Part shown: in pieces, positions 32,713 to 52,698 of the stretch
Numbering within the stretch: position 1 is the first letter of the stretch
How the letters are laid out: the number at the start of each line of letters is the position of its first letter
From: Aequorivita sp.
GTDB taxonomy: Bacteria > Bacteroidota > Bacteroidia > Flavobacteriales > Flavobacteriaceae
NCBI GenBank assembly: GCA_024637015.1
Contig: JAGXGE010000015.1
Span: 186,001-250,000 of the forward strand
DNA: 64,000 nucleotides
Direction: 5' to 3'
The notes under the pieces: generated by a model
What the model was told of the DNA's origin: nothing
What the model saw: only the letters and a program-made list of their open reading frames with translations
Database searches by the model: none
Program-made: the position numbers and the translations under genes

Positions 32713-32859
32713 CATTATTGCCAAATCTTTACCTCGCTATTTATAATAGGTGGCTGGGCTAATGCCGTGCTCACGGCTGATCTCATCAAGACTCTTTCCG
32801 TTGTCGAATTCTTTTAAAATCTTTGCAATCTGTTACGGTGAGAATTTACTTCGTCTCAG
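32713..32859 (-). pseudogene. IS3-family OrfA transposase remnant (in-frame stops)
   Basis: Minus-strand translation LRRSKFSP*QIAKILKEFDNGKSLDEISREHGISPATYYK*RGKDLAIM matches the typical OrfA helix-turn-helix start with two stops. Confidence 0.8.
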
Positions 32860-32970
32860 AATACTGTTTAAAATTAAGATAATTACCCTACTTTTAAACA
32901 GTTTGGTTTTAAGGGAAGCTTACAACTTAATCTTTCAAAGTGGCACAAATCGAACCGAATTATCAAGTAA

Positions 32971-36441: not shown

Positions 36442-38304
36442 TTAGTTGAAATTTAGCAAGGATTCGTTCAGTTTTTTTAAAATATTTTCAAGAGCAAATT
36501 TTGTTAATTCTGATGCTTTTTCTTTTTCATGATTTATTTTTTTTATCCATTTTTTGACGAATTGTTTTTCCTGCATAATATCAGGAGAAATTTCCTCATT
36601 ATATCTGTTTTCAATCTCAGTAGCAAAATCAATAATTTCTGAATTTTTTAAATTTATAAATACCTCCCAAAATTCGTCAAAATTAAATAATGAAAATATT
36701 GGTGTATATCGATACTGAGATTGAAGTGGATATGTTTGATTTAAAAACTCCTTAAAATCTGTTTTAAATAAATGAAAAAGGTTTGAAATTTCAGTTTTAA
36801 AATTATCATTTTTTAGCTTTTGATTTAAATTAAAACAATACTCAATTATTTTCTTTACTTCATTAGTGGTCTTTATATAAACACCTAAATTTTCCGTATA
36901 ATTATATTGAGGTATTCCCTTGTCAATTCCTTTTATGAATCTATGACTTAATTTTTCGATGTCAAATCCCAAGACATTATTCATCCTTGTTGCTAAAACA
37001 AATAAATATGGATACCTGCCAAGAGCGAAACTTCCTTTATCAACGAATTTCAACATTCGTAAGGTCAATTCTTTATATTTTTTAAATTCCATGTCAATGA
37101 AATCTCGTTGGGATAATTTTCCAACAATATCTTCTGCTTCCGAAAATTTCTCCTCTTTAATATTGAATTTCGTCTTTAATTCTTTCAAAAGTTCTTTTGG
37201 GAAAAATTGCGATTCACCAATTATAAAATCAAAAATTGATTTAAAAAAATAATTTGAAAATTGATTATCTCCTAAATATTTTGTTTTGTAAATATCAATA
37301 TATGTTTGTTCTTTTTTAACCGAATTAGAAGTGGAATTTTTAGCTAGAATGGCTTCTATTAAAAATCTACTACCACTATACAAATCGGAAATGTCCTTGT
37401 GGCTATGGGAATTAATTTTTCCCATTTTGTATTCCACTGAAATGGGTAAGGCGAAACTTAATACAGTTTTGAAAACAATATCCTTTACAGATAAAAGTAA
37501 TTTTTCTTCCTCTAATTCCTTTACAAGTCCCTTATATATGATTTTAAAATTCTCTAAAAAGAAAACTAAATTTCTAATATTCCCTTTATTGAGTAATATA
37601 ATTTCTAAAATAAAATTTTTGTTCTCTGTCAAATATTCAAAATATTCTAAATCGTGATCATTATTATATTTATTATTGATAATATGGTTAAAGATTGCTT
37701 CTACATCAGTTTTAAAATTCATAGACACTCCAATAACCTTTTCACGCAACATCGAATATGATTGATTATTCGTATTTTTTTCCTCTTTAAATAAAATTTC
37801 TTCGTTAGCAATTATGATAACTTTTGTATTTGAGTTTTCTACTAAGTTATTAATGAAACCGAACAATTCCGTGCTTTTTAAATCTTCGCTCTTTCTGTCA
37901 ATGTCATCAAAACATAACAACAACTTGTTATAGTTTAAAATATCTTTTGGAGAAGTATTTATATTGCTTATATACTCGTCTATATCAATGCCAGAATATA
38001 CTTTAAGCAAACTTTTGCCAATATCTGAGGCTATCTTGATCTTTTTTCCTTTTAGAATAGGGTACAATTCTAAGAAAATCATTTTTTGAATTTCCTCCAC
38101 CGTTTTAATACCAAATAGGGAAATTAAAATAGGCGTAAACTTGGAATCTTTTTCACTTGATACTTCAATTCCCTTGACTATTGGAAATAATTCATGTTTG
38201 AAATAATATGTTTTTCCTATTCCATATTCACCTCTAATTATAACTGCATAGTTGGTTTCTAATTGGAGATATTGAATAATTCGGTCTGTTAAAACTTCAT
38301 TCAT
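36442..38304 (-). CDS. KAP-family-like P-loop NTPase
   Basis: Walker A IIRGEYGIGKTYYFKHELFP; Walker B LLLCFDDIDRKSEDL; sensor-like VIIIANEEIL. Confidence 0.8.
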   Translation of the reverse strand: MNEVLTDRIIQYLQLETNYAVIIRGEYGIGKTYYFKHELFPIVKGIEVSSEKDSKFTPILISLFGIKTVEEIQKMIFLELYPILKGKKIKIASDIGKSLLKVYSGIDIDEYISNINTSPKDILNYNKLLLCFDDIDRKSEDLKSTELFGFINNLVENSNTKVIIIANEEILFKEEKNTNNQSYSMLREKVIGVSMNFKTDVEAIFNHIINNKYNNDHDLEYFEYLTENKNFILEIILLNKGNIRNLVFFLENFKIIYKGLVKELEEEKLLLSVKDIVFKTVLSFALPISVEYKMGKINSHSHKDISDLYSGSRFLIEAILAKNSTSNSVKKEQTYIDIYKTKYLGDNQFSNYFFKSIFDFIIGESQFFPKELLKELKTKFNIKEEKFSEAEDIVGKLSQRDFIDMEFKKYKELTLRMLKFVDKGSFALGRYPYLFVLATRMNNVLGFDIEKLSHRFIKGIDKGIPQYNYTENLGVYIKTTNEVKKIIEYCFNLNQKLKNDNFKTEISNLFHLFKTDFKEFLNQTYPLQSQYRYTPIFSLFNFDEFWEVFINLKNSEIIDFATEIENRYNEEISPDIMQEKQFVKKWIKKINHEKEKASELTKFALENILKKLNESLLNFN

Positions 38305-38313
38305 TTGCTTAAT

Positions 38314-41300
38314 TTATTTATTATATTTTTCATATAAATCCCTTAAAAAGTACTGTCCATTCTTTGCAAACTCATTACAAATTTTATTAGATTTTTCAGA
38401 TAATAATAAATCATTCTGTAAATAAAGAAATTCTACAAATTCAAGTATCTCTTTTTGCATTATGGATGCATAATAAAAATCTTTAAAAAATGAATCAATA
38501 AATATTTCACAAGCATAAATGCAATTTTGTCTTACGTTCCCAATTATTTTTAGTCGATTAAGATTTTTAATTAGTTCGTCCAGATCCCTTCCATGACGTG
38601 CGTACGAAGAACTTTTAAGGATTAATTGAGTTGATTCTTCATTAAGTTGATCTATATATTTTATAAGATAAATTAAGGAAGGAAAGTCTTTGGATTCTAT
38701 TCCTTCCATCGTATCCAGTAATTTTAAAATGTATCGCCATAATTTTAAAATTTTATCTTTAAATTTTATTTTCTCCTCAGTAATAAGTCCATCTCTATAA
38801 CTAGAAAACTTGAACGAAAGAGAATGTACAATACTCTTAATACTATTAATCTCTTTTTTGTTGAGCAAAAGGGTTAATAATTCACCCTCATTTAAGTTTT
38901 CATAATTATAAATATAAAAGATAAGAATATGTGTTTCTAAAGGAGTATTACCCATACTTGAATCGACGATTTGCCAATTAGAAAGAATATGCTTTTTATA
39001 AATGTCCTTTAAAGTATTATATTCAAAAATAGAAGTAGGGTAATTTAATAAATGCCCTCCAAAAAAGGACATGATAGATTGATCGTTTTTTTGAGGTATT
39101 GATTTTAATTGCTTTTTTGTCCATTCAAAATCTAGGAAGTAAAAGTTGTTTATGTGCCAACCCAAAAGAACTAAAACCTCTTGAATATTATTGTTTATTA
39201 GTTTATCAAAAGCACTCTTTTCTTCTAAAGACCAAATTGGAGTTTTATCTTCCAATAATTGTTTTTTTAACCTCCCTTTTCTTAAAGAGTAATCAAGTAA
39301 ACATCCTATAATTACTCCTGTTCTCGAGTTTACAACTTGCATTGCTGAACCTAATTTGCCAACGTGTTTGTCATCTAACTTATTAGATATGTATTTTTCT
39401 AATAATAAAAATATATTTTTCTCAGCCATAGGTAAAAATTCTTCGGGAAATGCTATATCATCATTTCTCATTCCTTGGCTCATTAACCTACAAAAACTAA
39501 TTATTGTAGATGAGTAATCATAATCATATGGATCGTTTTTAAACTGTAACTTATCTGTAGAAAATTCGCTTTGGGATATATATTGGTAAATGAAATCTAA
39601 AGTATTTTTCCAATCAATTAGAATACCTGTTTTATGTGCATCTGATAGAGAATAAAATATTGTTGAAATATGTTTATAAGGTACTTTTAAAAATTGTAAA
39701 TGATTTAAATAAAAAATTTCAGGTTTTTCTTTAATAACGATACCTAAATTATCTGCCAATCCGTCAACGCTTGGATTTCTGAAACTCCTTTCGGGGTCAA
39801 ACTCCTTTAAATAACTTATTAACTCGTCTATTGGAAGACTCTTAATTTTTTTTGAACTAATTGGAGACGTACTTCCAAAAATGATACCTGACTCAATCTT
39901 GGGTCTAACTTGTTTTTTTGTTAGTTTTAATTTCTTTGATAATTGATTATAGGGCTTTTTAAAAAAGATATTTTCACTCAAAGCCGAATACCATAGTAGT
40001 CTAAAATTATCAAAATATTCTTTCTTATTATAATAATGTTCATCTTGCGATCCACGCTCTATAATATCTTTAAAAATCATAGCCTCGTCTTCATTTAATT
40101 TTTCTGCAATCTCTTCTATCAGGAAGTATAGGTCATCACCCCAATAATTGCTCGAAAATAATTTTCGCTCATCTTCATTTTCAATTAATTGAAAAAATAT
40201 TTCCTTAGTATTCTCCCAAGTTTTAGCGAATAGAAATAAGGATAGCTTTATAAAATGCCTGTGAGAATATTTTTGACTTAAAAAACTATGAATTACTTCT
40301 TGAATCCTTTCAGGTGATTCATCAGAAATTTTTACACATACATTTTTCAAAAATGTCGTGTATATACTTTTGACAGAATATGAGTGACTTTGAAGTTCGT
40401 TTGGGTAGAATATACTATTGATTATTCCATCAAATTCGGATTTAAGAGAAATCAATAATTTGTTGGCAATATGGAATATAACCTCATTTGAACAATAATT
40501 GGCAATTCCAGAATAAAAAGTATCGTTTTCGCACGCTTCTCTTAATCTATACGCCCGAATTATTGGATAGTGATTTCCTGTTTCATAAGTTGAAGTATCT
40601 CGAAATCTTTGGTCATTTGATACTTCAAAGACTAATTTTATTATCTTTTCTATTCGGGACTTATTATGCTTGGAAACTTCTTCATTTTCAAAATAAGTAT
40701 TAATAAAATTGAAAATTTCATTACTGGTAAGAACATTTTGAGGTTCAATTGTAAAATAAATAGGAAGCTGATTAATAATAATATCATTTACATATTTCTT
40801 TGGTAGATTGGTTAGAATTACCAAAAGAGTATACCAAATTCGATAATTTTTTATCGGCTGAATATTAATAGAATAAGTGCCTATATCTTCAACAATTTCA
40901 ACTAATAGTATGCTTAATCCTTCTTCAATTTTTCCTTTATTAATTTCTATGGCTAAGAACTCTAAGTACTCAGATTGATTCCAATAAGATTCATCTTTAA
41001 TTGTTTCTGGCGAAAAAAAGCCGTTTTCATATAGTGCTATAAACCAAGAATCTTTAATTAGATTTTTAAAAAAGTAATGCTCCTTTTGATTGTCTAAAAG
41101 AATATTCTTTAAAGTAAAAAGAATTTCTTCTGAAGGATTTTCATATTTTATTATTCTTTCTAATTGTTTAATTTGCTTTATAAAGTCCCCTAACAGTTTT
41201 AAAAGAATATCTTCATATCTTGACCATAGACTCGATATTTCTTCTGCATTTCTGGAAGTTTTGTATCCACCTCTCCTATGTGTATATTCAACAAACTTAG

Positions 41301-41625
41301 TCGCTACATCTATATATTCTCTTGCGAATGGTTCATCAACAGGTAAGTCCAATGCAGTCAAAATGGAGGCAATATGTCCTTTCCTCTTTTTTAAGTCGGA
41401 GTCTAATGACAGTGTTTTTTCAAGTTTCTTTTTTTCATCATCTGGGGCTAAAAAGTCTCGAAGACTTCCGTCAATTTCTCTTGCTGAATGAGCAATCATA
41501 TAAGACCTTGATGGGATAGATTCAGTCTCAATAAGCATTAACCCACTTTTATAAAAACCTGAGAGCTCCTCGCCAATATTTTTAAGTCCCTGATAAATTG
41601 CCTTTTGCTTTGCTAACATCTCCAT
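38314..41625 (-). CDS. Large helical protein of unknown function (1103 aa), KAP operon
   Basis: Long Leu/Lys/Glu-rich ORF, no motif recognised; 9 bp from the KAP gene. Confidence 0.7.
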   Translation of the reverse strand: MEMLAKQKAIYQGLKNIGEELSGFYKSGLMLIETESIPSRSYMIAHSAREIDGSLRDFLAPDDEKKKLEKTLSLDSDLKKRKGHIASILTALDLPVDEPFAREYIDVATKFVEYTHRRGGYKTSRNAEEISSLWSRYEDILLKLLGDFIKQIKQLERIIKYENPSEEILFTLKNILLDNQKEHYFFKNLIKDSWFIALYENGFFSPETIKDESYWNQSEYLEFLAIEINKGKIEEGLSILLVEIVEDIGTYSINIQPIKNYRIWYTLLVILTNLPKKYVNDIIINQLPIYFTIEPQNVLTSNEIFNFINTYFENEEVSKHNKSRIEKIIKLVFEVSNDQRFRDTSTYETGNHYPIIRAYRLREACENDTFYSGIANYCSNEVIFHIANKLLISLKSEFDGIINSIFYPNELQSHSYSVKSIYTTFLKNVCVKISDESPERIQEVIHSFLSQKYSHRHFIKLSLFLFAKTWENTKEIFFQLIENEDERKLFSSNYWGDDLYFLIEEIAEKLNEDEAMIFKDIIERGSQDEHYYNKKEYFDNFRLLWYSALSENIFFKKPYNQLSKKLKLTKKQVRPKIESGIIFGSTSPISSKKIKSLPIDELISYLKEFDPERSFRNPSVDGLADNLGIVIKEKPEIFYLNHLQFLKVPYKHISTIFYSLSDAHKTGILIDWKNTLDFIYQYISQSEFSTDKLQFKNDPYDYDYSSTIISFCRLMSQGMRNDDIAFPEEFLPMAEKNIFLLLEKYISNKLDDKHVGKLGSAMQVVNSRTGVIIGCLLDYSLRKGRLKKQLLEDKTPIWSLEEKSAFDKLINNNIQEVLVLLGWHINNFYFLDFEWTKKQLKSIPQKNDQSIMSFFGGHLLNYPTSIFEYNTLKDIYKKHILSNWQIVDSSMGNTPLETHILIFYIYNYENLNEGELLTLLLNKKEINSIKSIVHSLSFKFSSYRDGLITEEKIKFKDKILKLWRYILKLLDTMEGIESKDFPSLIYLIKYIDQLNEESTQLILKSSSYARHGRDLDELIKNLNRLKIIGNVRQNCIYACEIFIDSFFKDFYYASIMQKEILEFVEFLYLQNDLLLSEKSNKICNEFAKNGQYFLRDLYEKYNK

Positions 41626-41643
41626 ACCCTTTCTTTTGTCAAT

Positions 41644-42729
41644 TTAATCTACCCAAATTAATTCCCTTTTCACTAAAGAATAAAGATTTACAACAAAGAA
41701 GAATAGAATCCCAAAATTTAATGAGATTAAAATTTCCGCTACAATAAGTCTTGTTTCAGGGTTAGTTAAACCAAAATATGCATAAAAAGGTAATAATAGA
41801 CCAAATACAGTGCTACACAGAAACATAATAAATATTAATTTTGTTGTTCCTGATAAACCAAACTTTAAATCTTTTTGAATGTCGTATAATTCAGTTAAAT
41901 AATACTCTTGCATATCATTACATAACTCAGCCATTAACTCATTGTTCAATTCTCGCCCAAGAAACTTTTTGTCTATACGTCCAATAGCACTTAGTATTTC
42001 CCCTTTAATTCTTCTACCTAAACTATAATATTTAATTAAAGAATAGTTTTTGTCAAAGAAATACCACATAGTACTGAAATATTGAATCTCCATTGCTCTT
42101 TGAACAAATTTTGAAGTGTAAATTCCTTTTCTTTGATAATCTCCATATAATTCGCTATTAGGAATGATTTGATCGCTTTTACGGTCTTTAACCAAGCTGG
42201 ACATTGCCAAATACATTCCCGACATTCCTTCTTTAAAATTTTTATGTTCGTATAACTCATCAATCAATTTTTCATCGACAGGCTTATAATCACTAAATGA
42301 CATTAATTTGTAATCGTAGTAGTCTATGTGCTTAAACCTTCCGTAATCAAACAAATTTTTAGTAGCATCTTCATCTTCCCAAATTCCCCAACGATTTGTT
42401 AGCTTTAAACAGACCCTTCTAAAATCTGTTATTTTTTGTGAAAAATGAGTTGCTTCGTCGTATAATTCTTTCTTTACAGTCCATATTTGAGATAACCTAT
42501 TAAAAAAGAAAGTGATTAGAATCGCAGAAAATAATCCATTTATTGTGAGAATGATTTCGAGACCATTATCAGGTTGAAAATTATTTGAATAGAAATGTAA
42601 TTTTGCAAACATTATTAGTACAAGTTCAAGGGAGATTAGAAATAATAATATCATAACCCAATCCCATTGAAGAATTTTCCGCCACAAAATTTTCGCTTTA
42701 TGGGATATTTTTTTTCGAGAAAATTCCAT
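41644..42729 (-). CDS. Membrane protein (about 4 TM), KAP operon
   Basis: Two N-terminal and two C-terminal hydrophobic segments (VMILLFLISLELVLIMF; GLFSAILITFFF; LIFIMFLCSTVFGLLLPFYAYFG; ISLNFGILFFFVVNLYSLV). Confidence 0.75.
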   Translation of the reverse strand: MEFSRKKISHKAKILWRKILQWDWVMILLFLISLELVLIMFAKLHFYSNNFQPDNGLEIILTINGLFSAILITFFFNRLSQIWTVKKELYDEATHFSQKITDFRRVCLKLTNRWGIWEDEDATKNLFDYGRFKHIDYYDYKLMSFSDYKPVDEKLIDELYEHKNFKEGMSGMYLAMSSLVKDRKSDQIIPNSELYGDYQRKGIYTSKFVQRAMEIQYFSTMWYFFDKNYSLIKYYSLGRRIKGEILSAIGRIDKKFLGRELNNELMAELCNDMQEYYLTELYDIQKDLKFGLSGTTKLIFIMFLCSTVFGLLLPFYAYFGLTNPETRLIVAEILISLNFGILFFFVVNLYSLVKRELIWVD

Positions 42730-44489: not shown

Positions 44490-44741
44490 TCAATCCATCT
44501 TACCATATTTTCCTATTTCAAAATTAAAATCACATAATTGCTTAGGATGGACATTTAGAGCCTGTGCGAATTTTAAAAAGGTGCTTATTGTCATATTAAT
44601 TTTTCCTTGCTCATACCGACTTATCTCAGAGTTCTCAATTCCCGTCAGGAAACTAATGTCGTTCTGTGTTTGGTTATTTTCATCTCGGAATTCTATAATC
44701 TTACTTCCAATTCCCTTCAAAAAATCGCTATTGATATTCAT
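44490..44741 (-). CDS. XRE-family helix-turn-helix regulator
   Basis: IIEFRDENNQTQNDISFLTGIENSEISRYEQGKINMTISTFLKFAQALNV. Confidence 0.85.
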   Translation of the reverse strand: MNINSDFLKGIGSKIIEFRDENNQTQNDISFLTGIENSEISRYEQGKINMTISTFLKFAQALNVHPKQLCDFNFEIGKYGKMD

Positions 44742-44806: not shown

Positions 44807-44920
44807 TTTTAAAAATTATTATTATATTTGTTTTAATAACATAAATTTGCGATTCTTCTATAGCAATAATTAGAAGCATTCGCTTTGAATCTCGCTTTTG
44901 AAAACTGGTAATTTTTAAAT

Positions 44921-45035
44921 GGGAACGAGATGATAAGTAAGATGCTCACGTCTATATCGGCGTGGGCTCACTTATTGTTCCCAAGGTATACCAGTACCTC
45001 AAAGGCAGTAAGCTGAGTTCCGCGCCTTTTTGTAT
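44921..45035 (+). ncRNA. Candidate structured RNA/long hairpin upstream of susC
   Basis: GGGAAC/GTTCCC, ATAAGTAAG/CTCACTTAT and GCTCACG/CGTGGGC pair co-linearly around loop tctatatc; terminator-like ggc...gcctttttg follows. Confidence 0.45.
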
Positions 45036-45349
45036 TTGGCTTGGTCGTGTTTTCTTCCCTCAACTTTCTTTCAAGGCAACTGTTTCTTCCACCAAGAAGC
45101 TTCGCATTTGTATAGTATTGAGTATTGAGTAGTTAGTATTGAGTGTTTTCAACTCCTAATGAGGTCTCTCCCGAAGCCTCGGGAGCGCTCGACCAGACAT
45201 TCATGTCTTAATGCTTAAAGCTTACAGCTTACAGCCTAAAGCCTAAAGCATAAAGCTTTAAAAAAAAAGACCCGCTCCACGTTTTCGACGACCGTTGGAG
45301 CAGGCCAGTAGTTTAAAAAAGATATTAACCCTTAAACCAATGCAAAATT

Positions 45350-48349
45350 ATGAAAAATAATTACAGGTATAGGCTTGCACTTGCAAGTATTTTTGCCCTC
45401 TTCTTCACTTACAACTCCCCACTTTTTTCTCAGAACCTTCCACTAAAAACCATTAGTGGAATCATTACCGATGCCGAAGGTCCGCTCAGCGGAGTCAATG
45501 TATTGGTAAAAAACACCGCCCGTGGGAGCATCAGCGATCTGGAAGGCAGGTATGCCCTAACCGCCACTGCCAAGGATACACTTGTATTCACCTATTTGGG
45601 GTATAAGTCCCAAGAAGTGGTTGTGGGCAGTAGCAGTATTATGAATGTTGTTATGCAGGTTGATGCCACTGCCTTGGATCAAGTGGTTATTAATGCGGGG
45701 TATTATAAGGTTACTGAAAAAGAAAAAACAGGAAGTATCTCCCGTATTACAGCTGAAGATATTGAGGAACAAATAGTAATGAATCCTGTTGCTGCACTAC
45801 AAGGGAGGGTTTCAGGTTTACATATTATCCAAAACTCGGGGATTGCAGGAAGTGGCTTTATGGTCCAATTGCGTGGCAAGAACAGTTTAACGGCTGGTAA
45901 CCAACCATTATATGTTATTGATGGCATTCCTTTTAGTTCCGATGGAATGGGCACCCGTAACGTTTCCGGTACTATCCTGCCCGGCGCAGACTATAGCCCT
46001 TTTAGTTTTTTAAGTCCTTCCGATATTGAGAGTATTGAGGTGCTGAAGGATGCCGATGCCACGGCCATTTATGGCTCCCGTGGTGCCAATGGGGTTATTT
46101 TGATAACCACCAAAAGGGAGCAGAGGGGAAGCACTACATATTCCATTACCGCAAAGAGTAGCCTCGGGCAAACCGCAAAAAAACAAAAACTACTGAATAC
46201 AGAACAATATCTGCAGCTACGGGAGCAGGCTTTTGGCAATGATGGCTTCACTGAGTATCCTCCTTATGCGTACGATATTAACGGCACCTGGGACCGAAAC
46301 CGTTATTCCGATTGGCAGGAGGAACTATTGGGTGGGACGGCCTATATACGGGAATATCAGGCCTCGGTGGCCGGGGGCAGCAATTCCACTTCCTTTTTTT
46401 TCAGTGGTGGTTACCATAATCAGACTACAGTATTTCCCACCGACGACCGTTACCAACGCGCCAATGGCCTTGCCAAGCTTTCCCACAGTTTGCCCAACGA
46501 TAGCTTTAAGATAACCCTGTCCACAGCCTATGCCCATGAAAACAATCAGCTCCCGAGTTCCGATTTAAGCTATCAGGCTTTGATCTTACCCCCAAATGCA
46601 CCCCAATTATACAATGAGGACGAAACCCTCAATTGGGAGGACGGAACCTTTAACAATCCGTTGGCTTCCCTTCAAGGTGAGTTGTTGTCCAAACGAAACA
46701 GCCTGCTTGTAAATGGTTTATTGGAAATCAAGCTGCTGAACAATCTCACGCTACGCACCACCTTGGGGTATCAGGATACCAAACTATCTGAATATCGTAC
46801 AAGTCCCCACACCATTTATCCGCCACAGTATGGTTTTGACAGTAGTTTTTCTGGCATCTATACTAACGACGGAACCCGAAATTCGTGGATGGTGGAACCT
46901 CAATTGAATTATAACTATAGCCTTGGGGACCACAAGCTGGATGTATTGTTGGGCTATTCCGCACAAAACGAAACATCAAGCGTCTTTTCCCAATACGCAG
47001 AAGGTTTTGCCACGAACTCCCAAATTAGGAACCTAGCGGCGGCCAATTATATCAGGGTGATGAACGATGCCGAACAGGTATATAAGTATCAGGCGCTATT
47101 CGGAAGGGTAAACTATACTTTTATGGATCGGTATATCATCAACCTAACGGGGAGGAGGGATGGCTCCAGTCGCTTTGGCCCCAACAACCGTTTTGCCAAT
47201 TTCGGGGCGGTGGGTGGCGCCTGGTTGTTTTCAGAAGAAGCGGGAGTTGAGAATGCCCTACCCTTTCTTTCTCATGGAAAGCTTCGCGGTAGTTATGGCA
47301 GTACTGGCAACGACCAGATTGGCGACTACCGCTATTTAAACTCCTATGGCAGCACTGGTATATCTTTTAATGGAACTATTGGGCTCTACCCCACCGCCCT
47401 CTACAACCCCAATTTTGGGTGGGAGGAAAACCGAAAGGCTGAGCTGGCGCTAGAACTGGGCTTGTTTAATAACAGGATTACAACCAACATCAACTATTAC
47501 AGAAACCGTTCCTCCAACCAACTAGTAGAAATTCCCCTTCCAGGCACCACAGGCTTTCCTAGTATTTTGGGCAACCTCGGCGCCCTAGTGGAAAACAGGG
47601 GCTGGGAGTTTGAGCTGAATACCGTAAATATCAATCGAGGTAACTGGAAATGGAACACCTCCTTCAACTTTAGCCTCCCACGAAACGAACTACTTGAGTT
47701 CCCCAATCTGGCAAGTAGCACCTATGCCAACAGTTACGTAATTGGGGAGCCAATTACCATTGTAAGGGTGTTGCATTTTACGGGAGTTGATTCCGAAACG
47801 GGCGTCTATACATTTGAGGACTATAATGGCGACGGGCAGATAAGCGCCCCCGAGGATAGGAAGGCCATTATAGATACCGCTCCCGAATGGTACGGCGGGT
47901 TGTCTAATACTTTTGCCTATGAAAATCTGGAGCTGGATATCTTCTTCCAGTTTAGCAAGCAAATGGCACAGAATATAAACCGTTGGGGTATCACCCCCGG
48001 CGCCATGGCTAACCAGCCTGTTGAAGTATTAGATGCCTGGACTGCTCCTGGCGACCAAACAGATACCCAAGGCTATACCGCAGGCGGAAGCTATGAGCGC
48101 TCAGTAGCCGCCTATAATTTGGGGCAAAGTGATGCCGCTTTCAGTGATGCCACCTATTTACGGCTAAAGAATATCTCGCTTTCCTATAACATTCCAAATT
48201 TTCTCCACAGCACATCAAATGCTAAGGTATTTATCCAGGGACAAAACCTATACACCCTTACGGAATATAAAGGGCAAGACCCTGAACAGACGCAGGGTTT
48301 TATTCCTGCCCTACGATGGTTGGGTGCAGGACTTACATTAACCTTTTAA
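45350..48349 (+). CDS. SusC/RagA family TonB-linked outer membrane protein
   Basis: Carboxypeptidase-like N-domain (ISGIITDAEGPLSGVNVLVKN), plug (VDATALDQVVINAGYY...LYVIDGIPF...IESIEVLKDADATAIYGSRGANGVILITTK). Confidence 0.96.
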   Translation: MKNNYRYRLALASIFALFFTYNSPLFSQNLPLKTISGIITDAEGPLSGVNVLVKNTARGSISDLEGRYALTATAKDTLVFTYLGYKSQEVVVGSSSIMNVVMQVDATALDQVVINAGYYKVTEKEKTGSISRITAEDIEEQIVMNPVAALQGRVSGLHIIQNSGIAGSGFMVQLRGKNSLTAGNQPLYVIDGIPFSSDGMGTRNVSGTILPGADYSPFSFLSPSDIESIEVLKDADATAIYGSRGANGVILITTKREQRGSTTYSITAKSSLGQTAKKQKLLNTEQYLQLREQAFGNDGFTEYPPYAYDINGTWDRNRYSDWQEELLGGTAYIREYQASVAGGSNSTSFFFSGGYHNQTTVFPTDDRYQRANGLAKLSHSLPNDSFKITLSTAYAHENNQLPSSDLSYQALILPPNAPQLYNEDETLNWEDGTFNNPLASLQGELLSKRNSLLVNGLLEIKLLNNLTLRTTLGYQDTKLSEYRTSPHTIYPPQYGFDSSFSGIYTNDGTRNSWMVEPQLNYNYSLGDHKLDVLLGYSAQNETSSVFSQYAEGFATNSQIRNLAAANYIRVMNDAEQVYKYQALFGRVNYTFMDRYIINLTGRRDGSSRFGPNNRFANFGAVGGAWLFSEEAGVENALPFLSHGKLRGSYGSTGNDQIGDYRYLNSYGSTGISFNGTIGLYPTALYNPNFGWEENRKAELALELGLFNNRITTNINYYRNRSSNQLVEIPLPGTTGFPSILGNLGALVENRGWEFELNTVNINRGNWKWNTSFNFSLPRNELLEFPNLASSTYANSYVIGEPITIVRVLHFTGVDSETGVYTFEDYNGDGQISAPEDRKAIIDTAPEWYGGLSNTFAYENLELDIFFQFSKQMAQNINRWGITPGAMANQPVEVLDAWTAPGDQTDTQGYTAGGSYERSVAAYNLGQSDAAFSDATYLRLKNISLSYNIPNFLHSTSNAKVFIQGQNLYTLTEYKGQDPEQTQGFIPALRWLGAGLTLTF

Positions 48350-48359
48350 TGCTTAAACT

Positions 48360-49769
48360 ATGAAAAATTCTATACAGAAATACAATTACCGCTCCCTCAT
48401 GCTATTACTACGGCTAATGCTCTTGGTGCTATTGGGAGTGCTACTCTCCAGTTGCGAAAAGGCACTGGAACCGGATTATCCAGATTTTTTGCTCTCGGAA
48501 GAGGCTCTATTTGAAAACGGAACTACGGTTAACGCCGCCCTTGCCAATATATATAACGGTCTTCGGGATATTAGTCCCGTTAGTGGGGGTGTTGACGGAA
48601 CGGGTATACTCCTGGGGCTCTATGCGGATGAACTGGACTATTATCGGGAAAATGCCCCGGTTGACAATGCCTTTTATAATCATACGATACTTCCTAACAA
48701 TACTGCGGTGGGCAATTTTTGGAACAACAGCTATTCCCTTATATACAGTGCCAATAAAATTGTGGAAGGACTTGAAGATGCCCCCTTGGAGGAGGAAGAG
48801 CGGAATGGCTTTATGGGGGAAGCACTTTTCCTTCGGGCTTACCTCCACTTTTACCTTGCCCAATTGTTTGGGGACATACCCTATATACAAAGTACCGATT
48901 ATTCCGAAAATGCTTCGGTTTCGCGTATGCCCCTAACGCAGGTATACCAAATTGTGGAAGAGGATCTACTCTCTGCCAAGAACCTGTTGCCAGCTATGGA
49001 AACCAGTGGCGAAAGGCTTAGGGTTTCCAATGGCGTGGCCAGTGCGATGCTCTCACGATTATACTTAGTTACACAGCAATGGGAAAAGGCAATTAGTGAA
49101 AGTACAGCAGTCATTACGGAGGGGACATATACTTGGCAACCCGATTTAAATTTGGTCTTTCTAAAAGAGAGCCCCTCCACTATTTGGCAATTAAAACCCG
49201 AATTTGAGGGTTCGGGAACCAAGGAAGGGGAAACTTTAGTATTTGACTTTGGGCCGCCTTCCCTCTATGCACTTTCAGATAGTTTTATCGAAGGCTTTGA
49301 AACAGGAGACCTACGAAAGGAAGCTTGGACCCGAGAGCTATCGGACGGAGTACAAAGTTGGTACCACCCCTATAAATACAGGCAAAATTATTATGACGGT
49401 AGTAGTTCCGAATATTCCATTCTCTTCCGTTTGGCGGAACAATACCTCATCCGAGCGGAGGCATCCCTGCAAATGGGAAATTTACAGGAAGCAAAGGACG
49501 ACATAAATGGAATTAGACTTCGCGCAGGACTAACGCCCACCCTTGCCAGCAACCCAGAAGAAATCATAGATGAGTTGCAAAACCAATGGCGTTATGAATA
49601 TTTTACCGAGCAGGGCCACCGTTGGTTTTACCTAAAAAGATCGGGGACCGCCGATGAGGTATTGGGGCCCGTTAAATCGGGTTGGAAAGCCACCGATGTG
49701 CTTTTCCCGTTGCCGGCAAACGAACTCATACTAAACCCAAACCTCAACCCACAAAACCCAGGATATTAA
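48360..49769 (+). CDS. RagB/SusD family nutrient uptake outer membrane protein
   Basis: Lipobox LLSSCEKALEPDYPD; FLRAYLHFYLAQLFGDIPYI; FRLAEQYLIRAEASLQMGNLQEAKDDIN. Confidence 0.95.
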   Translation: MKNSIQKYNYRSLMLLLRLMLLVLLGVLLSSCEKALEPDYPDFLLSEEALFENGTTVNAALANIYNGLRDISPVSGGVDGTGILLGLYADELDYYRENAPVDNAFYNHTILPNNTAVGNFWNNSYSLIYSANKIVEGLEDAPLEEEERNGFMGEALFLRAYLHFYLAQLFGDIPYIQSTDYSENASVSRMPLTQVYQIVEEDLLSAKNLLPAMETSGERLRVSNGVASAMLSRLYLVTQQWEKAISESTAVITEGTYTWQPDLNLVFLKESPSTIWQLKPEFEGSGTKEGETLVFDFGPPSLYALSDSFIEGFETGDLRKEAWTRELSDGVQSWYHPYKYRQNYYDGSSSEYSILFRLAEQYLIRAEASLQMGNLQEAKDDINGIRLRAGLTPTLASNPEEIIDELQNQWRYEYFTEQGHRWFYLKRSGTADEVLGPVKSGWKATDVLFPLPANELILNPNLNPQNPGY

Positions 49770-52372
49770 TGAAACAAAATATTAAATTAAATGAACAGTC
49801 AATTAGCCACCTCCTCATACTTTTTTTCATGTTTGTTTTGGCCTCCTGCCCCATTTTGGGGCAGCAAGGGCCAGCAAAATCACTATTGCAACCAAATGAT
49901 TACGATATGTGGCACCACTTGAGAATCACCCAAATTTCTGGGGATGGTCTATGGACTTCCTATAAAATGGACTATGAAATTGAAGCAGACACCTTATTTG
50001 TTTTAAGCTATGACGGCAAGACGGAATATCAGTTTCCCAATGCCCACAGCGGCCAATTCCAACCCAATAAAAAAACGGAATTTTTTGCCTTTAAGGATGA
50101 TCAAAAAGGAATAGGCGTCCTCAATCTATCCAAAGGCGAGACGGTATGGGAAGCGGAAGCGGACCGCTTTGAGTTTGATAGTCAGGGGAACTTTCTTGCA
50201 CTTTATAATCCTCAGTCAAACGAGGGATTTTTGAAATTATGGGATCTGGAAAGGGATCAGACCACCGAATTAAAAGGAATTCAAAATTTTAAATTTGGTC
50301 CTTTGGGAAAAAGAGTCGTTGTAATAAGCAAGGATTCTACTGAAACGACGGTATCACTACTGCGACTAAAGGACATGCTACAGTCTGTTATCATAAAAAC
50401 CAAAAATTCAGAATTCATATACCCCACGTGGAACGATACAGGCGATGGCTTGGTTTTTATGGAAAGCACTCCAAATTCGGGACAGCGGCTCTATTATTTT
50501 GAGGATAAAAAAACACCGATGCTCAGGGAATTGGACGAAATTGATTTAAGAACGCTCGAAAGTTTTGCTATAAGCAAAATTCCACTTTCCTTTTCCAGGG
50601 ATGGGGAAAGGATATTCTTTTGGACCCATAGCCCAGACAATGATTCACTTAACAAAGAGAAAGACAGTGTAAACGTGCAGGTTTGGAAGGGCACAGACAA
50701 ATGGATATACCCTAGGCAGCAGGTGGATTGGGAATTCAACCATGCCGATAAACTGGCGGTATGGTGGCCCAAAACAAAAAAAATAGTTCAGATAGGTACG
50801 GAGGAAAGACCCGAGGTAATTCTTGTCGGGGATGAAAAGTATGCACTTACTTATAATGTTTTGACGTACGAACCGCAATTCAGACAAGCCCCGCGAACAG
50901 ATTTTTATATTACCGATTTGGATACAGGGGAAACATCCTTATTTGCCAAGGAATTGGAAACAGCCTTGGGCTACCTTAGCATTGATCCCAACGGAAAATA
51001 CATTGCATATTTCCTTGAAGGAACATGGTGGTTATATGATATTGAAAACAAAAAGCATTTAAATAGTACCGGACAAACCCCAAACTCCTTTACTTATAAA
51101 TTTCCACCGCATACTTTAGATAGCACTCCTTATGGAAACATGGGCTGGACCACCAAGGGTGAATTCTTGGTTTATGACGAATTCGATATTTGGAAAATAG
51201 GGGCAGGAACTAAAAACCCAAAACGACTTACAAACGGACGGGAGAGAGATATCCGTTATAGGGAATACAAAGGTCTTTATAATGGTTTCCGTTCCCTTTC
51301 AGATATTTCTCGGGATAAGCCAATTGATCTCGCTAAGCCTATTATCCTATCTACGCAGGATTCCCTCTTCATTCAAGGTTATGCCTTATTGGAGCCGGGT
51401 GGCAAGGTAAAGGACTTATTAAACGAAAACGGAAGAATTACGGAATTGCGAAAGGCAAAATTCACCGATAATTATATTTATGTAAAGCAGAAAAACGATG
51501 CACCTCCTTCACTCTGGAAAAAAGCAGGAAAAGATGCCAAGCTTTTGGTACAATCAAATGAACAACAGCATAGGTTTCTTACTGGCAAAACAGAATTGAT
51601 TTCTTACACAATCGATCAAGGGCAAAAACTGCATGGAATTCTTCACTATCCTGATAATTTTGAAGCCGGAAAACAATACCCTATGATAGTGTATGTTTAC
51701 GAAATGATAGGTTATAAATACCAAAAATATAATAATCCAAGTTACTATAATGGCACTGGTTATAACTACAGGAATTTTACGGCGTCGGGGTATTTTGTTC
51801 TGGAACCGGATATTTTGATCCAAAAGGGCAATCCTGGTGGCTCCGCTACCGATTGTGTAGCAAGGGCAGTTAATAAAGTTTTGGAAAAGGGGTACATAGA
51901 TAAAGACGCCATGGGACTGATTGGTCATTCCTTTGGAGGCTATGAGAGCGCTTTTATTATCTCACAGACCAATATATTTGCTGCAGCCGTAGTGGGCTCA
52001 GGTATTTTTGATCTTACAGCATCCTATCATAACATTAATAAAGATACCGGCAGGCCGGAGCATTGGCATTATGAGGACCATCAGTGGCAGATGGGCAAAA
52101 GTTTTTATGAGGGCAAGGAACTGTACAAGCGAAACTCCCCAGTGGAGTTTGCCCAGAACATAAAGACCCCAACCTTAATATGGACTGGAAACAAGGATTA
52201 TCAGGTAAATTGGCATCAAAGTGAGGCCATGTATCTAGCCTTGCGTCGTTTACATGTGGAAGTGGAATTACGAATTTATGAAAACGAAAGCCATTCCCTT
52301 GCAATACAAAAAAACCAAAAAGATCTTACAAAAAGAATTCAAGATTGGTTCAATAAATATTTAAAAAAGTAA
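49769..52372 (+). CDS. S9 family prolyl oligopeptidase-like peptidase
   Basis: C-term alpha/beta hydrolase: GLIGHSFGGYESAFIIS, PTLIWTGNKDYQVNWHQSEAMYLALRR, ENESHSL; start ATG overlaps susD stop (TAATG). Confidence 0.9.
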   Translation: MKQNIKLNEQSISHLLILFFMFVLASCPILGQQGPAKSLLQPNDYDMWHHLRITQISGDGLWTSYKMDYEIEADTLFVLSYDGKTEYQFPNAHSGQFQPNKKTEFFAFKDDQKGIGVLNLSKGETVWEAEADRFEFDSQGNFLALYNPQSNEGFLKLWDLERDQTTELKGIQNFKFGPLGKRVVVISKDSTETTVSLLRLKDMLQSVIIKTKNSEFIYPTWNDTGDGLVFMESTPNSGQRLYYFEDKKTPMLRELDEIDLRTLESFAISKIPLSFSRDGERIFFWTHSPDNDSLNKEKDSVNVQVWKGTDKWIYPRQQVDWEFNHADKLAVWWPKTKKIVQIGTEERPEVILVGDEKYALTYNVLTYEPQFRQAPRTDFYITDLDTGETSLFAKELETALGYLSIDPNGKYIAYFLEGTWWLYDIENKKHLNSTGQTPNSFTYKFPPHTLDSTPYGNMGWTTKGEFLVYDEFDIWKIGAGTKNPKRLTNGRERDIRYREYKGLYNGFRSLSDISRDKPIDLAKPIILSTQDSLFIQGYALLEPGGKVKDLLNENGRITELRKAKFTDNYIYVKQKNDAPPSLWKKAGKDAKLLVQSNEQQHRFLTGKTELISYTIDQGQKLHGILHYPDNFEAGKQYPMIVYVYEMIGYKYQKYNNPSYYNGTGYNYRNFTASGYFVLEPDILIQKGNPGGSATDCVARAVNKVLEKGYIDKDAMGLIGHSFGGYESAFIISQTNIFAAAVVGSGIFDLTASYHNINKDTGRPEHWHYEDHQWQMGKSFYEGKELYKRNSPVEFAQNIKTPTLIWTGNKDYQVNWHQSEAMYLALRRLHVEVELRIYENESHSLAIQKNQKDLTKRIQDWFNKYLKK

Positions 52373-52398
52373 TATAAATTAATAATTACAAATTGAAA

Positions 52399-52427
52399 GA
52401 TGCCCCAAATGGGGCATCTTTTTTTTT
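52399..52427. terminator. Terminator downstream of S9 peptidase
   Basis: AGATGCCCC-aaat-GGGGCATCT-T8, perfect stem. Confidence 0.9.
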
Positions 52428-52434
52428 AAGGCAA

Positions 52435-52698
52435 TCAAGGTTGCCAGTTCATAAATAAAGGTAAGGAACAACTCGTTGGTCCATTCTTACCAAAAACAAT
52501 TCTACCTGTGTTGTCTGTACAAGTTGCGGTACTTGACAGATCACATTTCCCGTGGGGAACGCAGACACCGTTTTGGTAAATGTAACCCTGCACAAGGGCC
52601 ATTTCTTCCTTACCATCATCCTGTGAGGCAAAAGCTGCCGCAATAGCAAGCATAAAGGCCGCCACAGGTAACAAAAACTTGAATTTTAAATTTCTCAT
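52435..52698 (-). CDS. DUF6520-like small exported Cys-containing protein
   Basis: MRNLKFKFLLPVAAFMLAIAAAFAS leader; C-terminal four-cysteine segment. Confidence 0.8.
   Translation of the reverse strand: MRNLKFKFLLPVAAFMLAIAAAFASQDDGKEEMALVQGYIYQNGVCVPHGKCDLSSTATCTDNTGRIVFGKNGPTSCSLPLFMNWQP

Follow-up and report, generated by a model that had tools for sequence, protein, structure and literature searches.

The locus described here lies in a 64,000-nucleotide stretch of Aequorivita sp. DNA (the window) and consists of three minus-strand genes between positions 36442 and 42729. The first gene of the operon, P3 (41644..42729), encodes a 361-aa protein with two predicted transmembrane (TM) segments, a soluble middle part of about 220 aa and two further TM segments. 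It is followed by P2 (38314..41625), which encodes a 1103-aa all-helical protein with a DSR1-type sensor solenoid and no SIR2 domain, and by P1 (36442..38304), which encodes a 620-aa KAP-like P-loop NTPase of the PADLOC family PDC-S49 with its Walker motifs. The ORF calls give gaps of 18 bp between P3 and P2 and of 9 bp between P2 and P1, in agreement with the tight packing stated in an earlier note on this DNA, and TM prediction places four segments in P3 and none in P1 or P2, so that the membrane segments and the ATPase are indeed on separate proteins. GC content is 26-29% in the operon genes and in P4, their divergent neighbour, and 42-47% in the immediate flanks on both sides. Together, the short gaps and the evenly low GC suggest that the three genes were acquired and are expressed as a unit.

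P4 (42788..43642, plus strand) lies in the same AT-rich block, outside the operon, and encodes a 284-aa AbiGi-like protein (PADLOC AbiGi, E 1.6e-16, residues 4-106; GC 25.7%); it diverges from P3 at a distance of 58 bp and has no recognised AbiGii partner. The edge of the AT-rich block holds the gene of a small XRE-type HTH protein (44490..44741, minus strand; Pfam HTH_3, E 1e-8), and the right edge of the variable island falls at 44816, where synteny with the congener G975 resumes (blastn 44816-52497, 81.5% identity over 7.7 kb). Left of the synteny break, the congener carries unrelated genes, including QatABCD, PDC-M49A and a methyltransferase, while a type I restriction operon and the PADLOC candidates PDC-S26 and PDC-S68 are found left of the operon in the window (19-32.5 kb). 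Because the congener carries other defence genes at the same site, the operon is placed at one edge of a defence hotspot that varies in content from species to species, and the description of the region as defence-rich is borne out. The restriction operon also contains, between its methyltransferase and specificity genes, an extra unexplained gene for a 772-aa protein (20965-23283) with no Pfam or PADLOC match. A segment of 190 bp (32735-32924) is 91.6% identical to a transposase region of the G975 hotspot and is likely an insertion-sequence remnant.

The central protein, P2, had been described in the earlier note as a giant helical protein of unknown function; its family is not wholly unknown, as P2 matches the PADLOC Dsr1 model (PDLC04166) with an E-value of 2.7e-69 over model positions 257-1225 of 1227, i.e. 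over the sensor part only. No SIR2 domain was detected in P2, Dsr1 model positions 1-256 being unmatched, and a search for the SIR2 motifs GAGxS and TTNxD, which were found in SIR2 controls, gave no occurrence in P1, P2 or P3. Relatives of P2 were drawn from genomes, plasmids and one GTDB contig (they include L024, L053, L055, L058, L110 and L112), and none were found in viral contigs or in phage records. Within the same family, P2-like proteins are present in 2 of 271 genomes, namely the window's own and one with a marginal match (G844, E 5e-4), at whose locus the proteins are ordinary. The closest sequence relative, from Leeuwenhoekiella marinoflava (48% identity), is a copy with a frameshift in the N-terminal domain X (see below). 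Genes that by eye encode an IS110-type transposase and an integrase lie upstream and downstream of it, respectively, and both P1 and P3 are missing. An HMM of the solenoid family spans nearly the whole solenoid of P2, of SIR2-fused L027, of PIN-fused L024 and of others, and matches haloarchaeal proteins with E-values of 1e-63 to 1e-89. In controls with shuffled sequences and with the proteins of more than 300 aa encoded in the P1 and P3 neighbourhoods, its matches were known family members only. The AlphaFold model of P2 (three sequences) reached a pTM of 0.39, too weak for function, and its Foldseek matches were of the generic HEAT/karyopherin type only; when solved structures were searched by sequence with P1, P2, P3, alignments A1 and A2 and one relative, nothing meaningful was returned. 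The 338-aa gene upstream of the P2-like gene of L053 was set aside as a candidate membrane partner, because it is separated by 468 bp and its product is unrelated in sequence to P3 and looks exported and anchored.

Various modules stand N-terminal to this solenoid. SIR2 is fused to it in the same protein in L027 and is a separate gene directly upstream of the solenoid gene in L054, L056 and L111. The position is taken by PIN_12 in L024, by domain X in P2, L053, L055, L110 and L112, and by an AAA_16/nSTAND-like NTPase in proteins from haloarchaeal plasmids (L119-L123). Two of the latter, L119 and L123, from the species Haloferax mediterranei and Natronorubrum bangense, carry four TM segments, NTPase (matches under the Pfam cut-offs in both) and solenoid on one chain. 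These are the same three kinds of module as in the operon, but the haloarchaeal NTPase is AAA_16/nSTAND-like where P1 is KAP-like, and the TM parts are likened by kind, which need not mean homology. A single clade of X proteins is rejected in the solenoid tree (ten rows, long branches; AU p 1e-74), both well-supported halves of which contain X as well as SIR2. These domain arrangements indicate, at the level of sequence, that the DSR1 sensor solenoid is probably portable across bacteria and archaea with various N-terminal partners. The position of P3, 18 bp before P2, parallels that of the detached SIR2 gene directly before the solenoid gene. In L024 (5778-9659), a gene of 232 aa whose product probably has one membrane anchor comes before the fusion of a PIN-domain nuclease with the DSR1-type sensor.

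Domain X (41158..41625, minus strand; P2 residues 1-156) occupies the SIR2 position of P2, as seen from alignment A4, a five-protein alignment and a profile search. It comprises about 150 aa, is helical by prediction and is common to relatives from Bacteroidota to Streptomyces, with a conserved RE...R...HR pattern (R49, E50, R56, H116 and R117) aligned in five divergent proteins. No match in Pfam or other libraries, no recognised enzymatic fold and no relative in viral contigs was found for X, and model confidence is mostly below 50 in this part. As X takes the place of SIR2 or PIN in relatives, it may be an effector or a docking part for an effector. The X-type proteins of L055, L110 and L112 are encoded by solitary genes, and neighbours resembling P3 or P1 are absent from the relatives of P2 that share its N-terminal domain. 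Since these other X-type proteins lack a membrane partner, X may itself be the output.

P1 matches the PADLOC model PDC-S49 with an E-value of 7.9e-66 (residues 3-614 to model positions 7-610 of 624), and three PDC-S49 models match over the full length. The Walker A motif GEYGIGKT (residues 25-32) and the Walker B motif LLLCFDD (residues 128-134, in LLLCFDDIDR), already pointed out in the earlier note, were confirmed, and G28, G30, K31, T32, F132, D133, D134 and R137 are invariant in an alignment of P1 with six relatives. P1 itself falls under the cut-off of Pfam KAP_NTPase, and its closest listed relative (L016, 31-32% identity) lies above it, in support of the KAP-like assignment proposed from the sequence; against STAND-type profiles, P1 gave a sub-threshold NACHT match only (E 0.19). 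Relatives of P1 occur in 11 of the 397 other sampled genomes of the phylum and in 151 plasmid records, and three partial matches occur in phage records. The relatives inspected are solitary or stand beside unrelated defence genes (restriction systems, AbiH, DSR2). The DSR2 gene near one of them, on a Bacillus plasmid (L113), was considered as evidence of an independent P2-P1 pair and rejected, given the gap of 782 bp and the lack of detectable homology to P2 by phmmer.

P3 has hydrophobic segments at residues 24-42, 57-75, 298-316 and 329-347, as the four-TM prediction of the earlier note implied, no match in Pfam, PADLOC or NCBIfam and no relative in viral contigs. Its relatives, at 20-25% identity and with E-values down to 1.5e-15, are encoded by 25 further genomes sampled from the same family (about 10%). 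A single conserved core neighbourhood is shared by 19 of the 20 relative loci fetched, one of these being in the window's own genome, and in 17 of the 19 core loci the P3-like gene is followed by a gene of about 946 aa, the product of which we take to be UvrA-like from its start (not by profile). The whole-length alignment (A3) keeps the 2+2 TM layout and the shared residues R104, W117, Y148, Y173, L174, E214, W222 and I245. On sequence comparison, P3 is a diverged cousin of the same-family 4-TM protein encoded beside the UvrA-like gene. A role of P3 as a toxin is weakened, because its sampled kin are nearly all core genes at that locus. The AlphaFold model of P3 (single sequence; pLDDT 55, pTM 0.40) is too weak to show a pore, and Foldseek gave no significant match. 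The loci L087-L105 display an unnamed 4-TM protein conserved beside the UvrA-like gene in flavobacteria. The remaining fetched locus, L106 (6575-8517), lies in a mobile context, where the gene directly before the P3-like 4-TM gene encodes a PLD-type nuclease, possibly a second defence use of the family.

The operon was compared with the known systems that its parts recall. The C-terminal helical sensor region of P2 matches DSR1 over nearly its full length, but P2 carries X instead of SIR2, and its gene is one of three in an operon, the other two being for a membrane protein and an NTPase. As the defining SIR2 domain is absent, the operon is not a DSR1 member, and its match to a named system is thus confined to the sensor half of DSR1, the NADase half being absent. 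Both DSR1 and DSR2 have been described as depleting NAD. DSR2 follows the same logic as P2, a C-terminal helical sensor with an N-terminal effector position, and published structures show that binding of the tail tube protein by its C-terminal helical region releases the N-terminal SIR2 domain (PMC10973363, PMC11263360). P2, however, has no match to the PADLOC Dsr2 model and does not match the DSR2 of L113 by phmmer. P1 matches PDC-S49 over its full length but lies in an operon, 9 bp downstream of P2, whereas its relatives stand alone. Many KAP proteins have TM segments, and P1, which possesses Walker A and a KAP-type Walker B, has none. With Avs/AVAST, the operon shares the division into three parts, namely an effector, an NTPase and a repeat sensor, and the haloarchaeal P2-type solenoids are fused to AAA_16/nSTAND-like NTPases; on the other hand, Avs/AVAST proteins have a STAND NTPase fused to the other parts, whereas the operon has three separate proteins and a KAP-like NTPase. 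P3 shows whole-length homology to the 4-TM family beside the UvrA-like gene but lies in a defence island, and nearly all other members lie in the core locus. QatA is a KAP-type P-loop NTPase, and QatABCD occupies the same chromosomal site in the congener, but the operon has no counterparts of QatB, QatC and QatD, and P1 gave no QatA match in PADLOC.

No PADLOC system has the composition of a SIR2-less DSR1-type sensor with X, a membrane protein and a KAP-like NTPase. The operon is likewise not described in the excerpts covered of the literature on DSR1/DSR2, Avs5 and PADLOC candidates, which is weak evidence, as subscription papers fall mostly outside that coverage. The combination had been called unrecognised, and as a combination it was found in no named system, but P2 (sensor part of Dsr1) and P1 (PDC-S49) are members of catalogued families. 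Each part can be assigned to a catalogued or recognisable family, and what is probably new is their composition.

The best reading of these results is that a DSR1-type sensor no longer acts by NAD depletion but has been rewired to a different output; damage to the membrane via P3 is the most likely one, and P1 would be the regulator. NAD depletion through SIR2 is excluded as the output of the operon because SIR2 is missing. By analogy with DSR2, P2 would bind a phage protein and a change in its shape on binding would release the output, which would most likely be P3, encoded where related loci place the detached SIR2 effector; P3 would then permeabilise the inner membrane, whereby the infected cell would be stopped, and P1 may license or reset the complex through NTP binding and hydrolysis. 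These roles are favoured because P3 is in the detached-effector position, the NTPase gene follows, and such modules are on one chain in haloarchaea. From this we infer a joint action of the three proteins, and that P3-P2-P1 is an anti-phage operon with P2 as sensor, P3 as membrane effector and P1 as NTP-dependent regulator has, in our estimation, a little less than an even chance. The more specific proposal is tentative: a three-component membrane-targeting system in which an NADase-less DSR1-type sensor acts via X with a separate four-helix membrane effector that was taken over from a core family of flavobacteria, while a KAP-like NTPase controls their action. Such a system would be the 4TM-NTPase-solenoid architecture of haloarchaea divided among three proteins.

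The joint-system reading is weakened, because the trio has no second occurrence among the sampled genomes, P1 relatives stand alone or beside unrelated defence genes and the Leeuwenhoekiella copy is without P1 and P3, although this copy is frameshifted and lies between a transposase and an integrase. Given that absence of the trio elsewhere, P1, and perhaps P3, may be neighbours and not partners. The claim of a defence operon therefore stands as to the defence island and the operon-like arrangement but not as to unity as one system, P1 and P2 having relatives without partners. Equal weight is given to an accumulation of independent systems at the hotspot that came to share a transcript. There, P2 would be a single-gene system with X as effector (e.g. 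HEPN-like or another enzyme acting through the RE...R...HR residues), P1 a separate PDC-S49 candidate and P3 an accessory or passenger. Besides the absence of a second trio, this fits the X-type proteins and P1 relatives found alone and the polar residues of X kept in divergent proteins; the gaps of 9 and 18 bp and the uniform low GC, however, favour a single unit, the haloarchaeal proteins show that such modules can cooperate, and X has no recognised enzymatic fold, with no Pfam match and a model of low confidence.

It is rather unlikely that P3 and P2 form a two-gene system of membrane effector and sensor, with P1 as an unrelated single-gene neighbour downstream. Such a pair is consistent with L054, L056 and L111, where a detached effector gene comes right before the solenoid gene, and with the solitary P1 relatives, including the one lying 782 bp downstream of the DSR2 gene in L113 as an apparently independent neighbour, but P1 starts only 9 bp after P2, and in haloarchaeal relatives an NTPase accompanies the solenoid. 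The core relatives of P3 beside the UvrA-like gene, detected in about 10% of the sampled family genomes, would suggest a role in housekeeping or envelope stress outside defence. This is very improbable: the consistent core context is confined to these distant P3 relatives, whereas both P2 and P1 are hit by defence models and have a rare, patchy distribution (P2-like proteins in 2 of 271 same-family genomes), and the site is a defence hotspot.

The operon offers a clean test of whether a DSR1-type sensor can drive a membrane effector. If the solenoid is portable, labelling every such solenoid DSR1 would misname a broader sensor family, and the X-type proteins would be a ready pool of candidate defence genes. 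The haloarchaeal proteins of L119 (3369-7820) and L123 (2318-6850), of about 1500 aa each, are possible membrane-acting Avs-like defence proteins in archaea.
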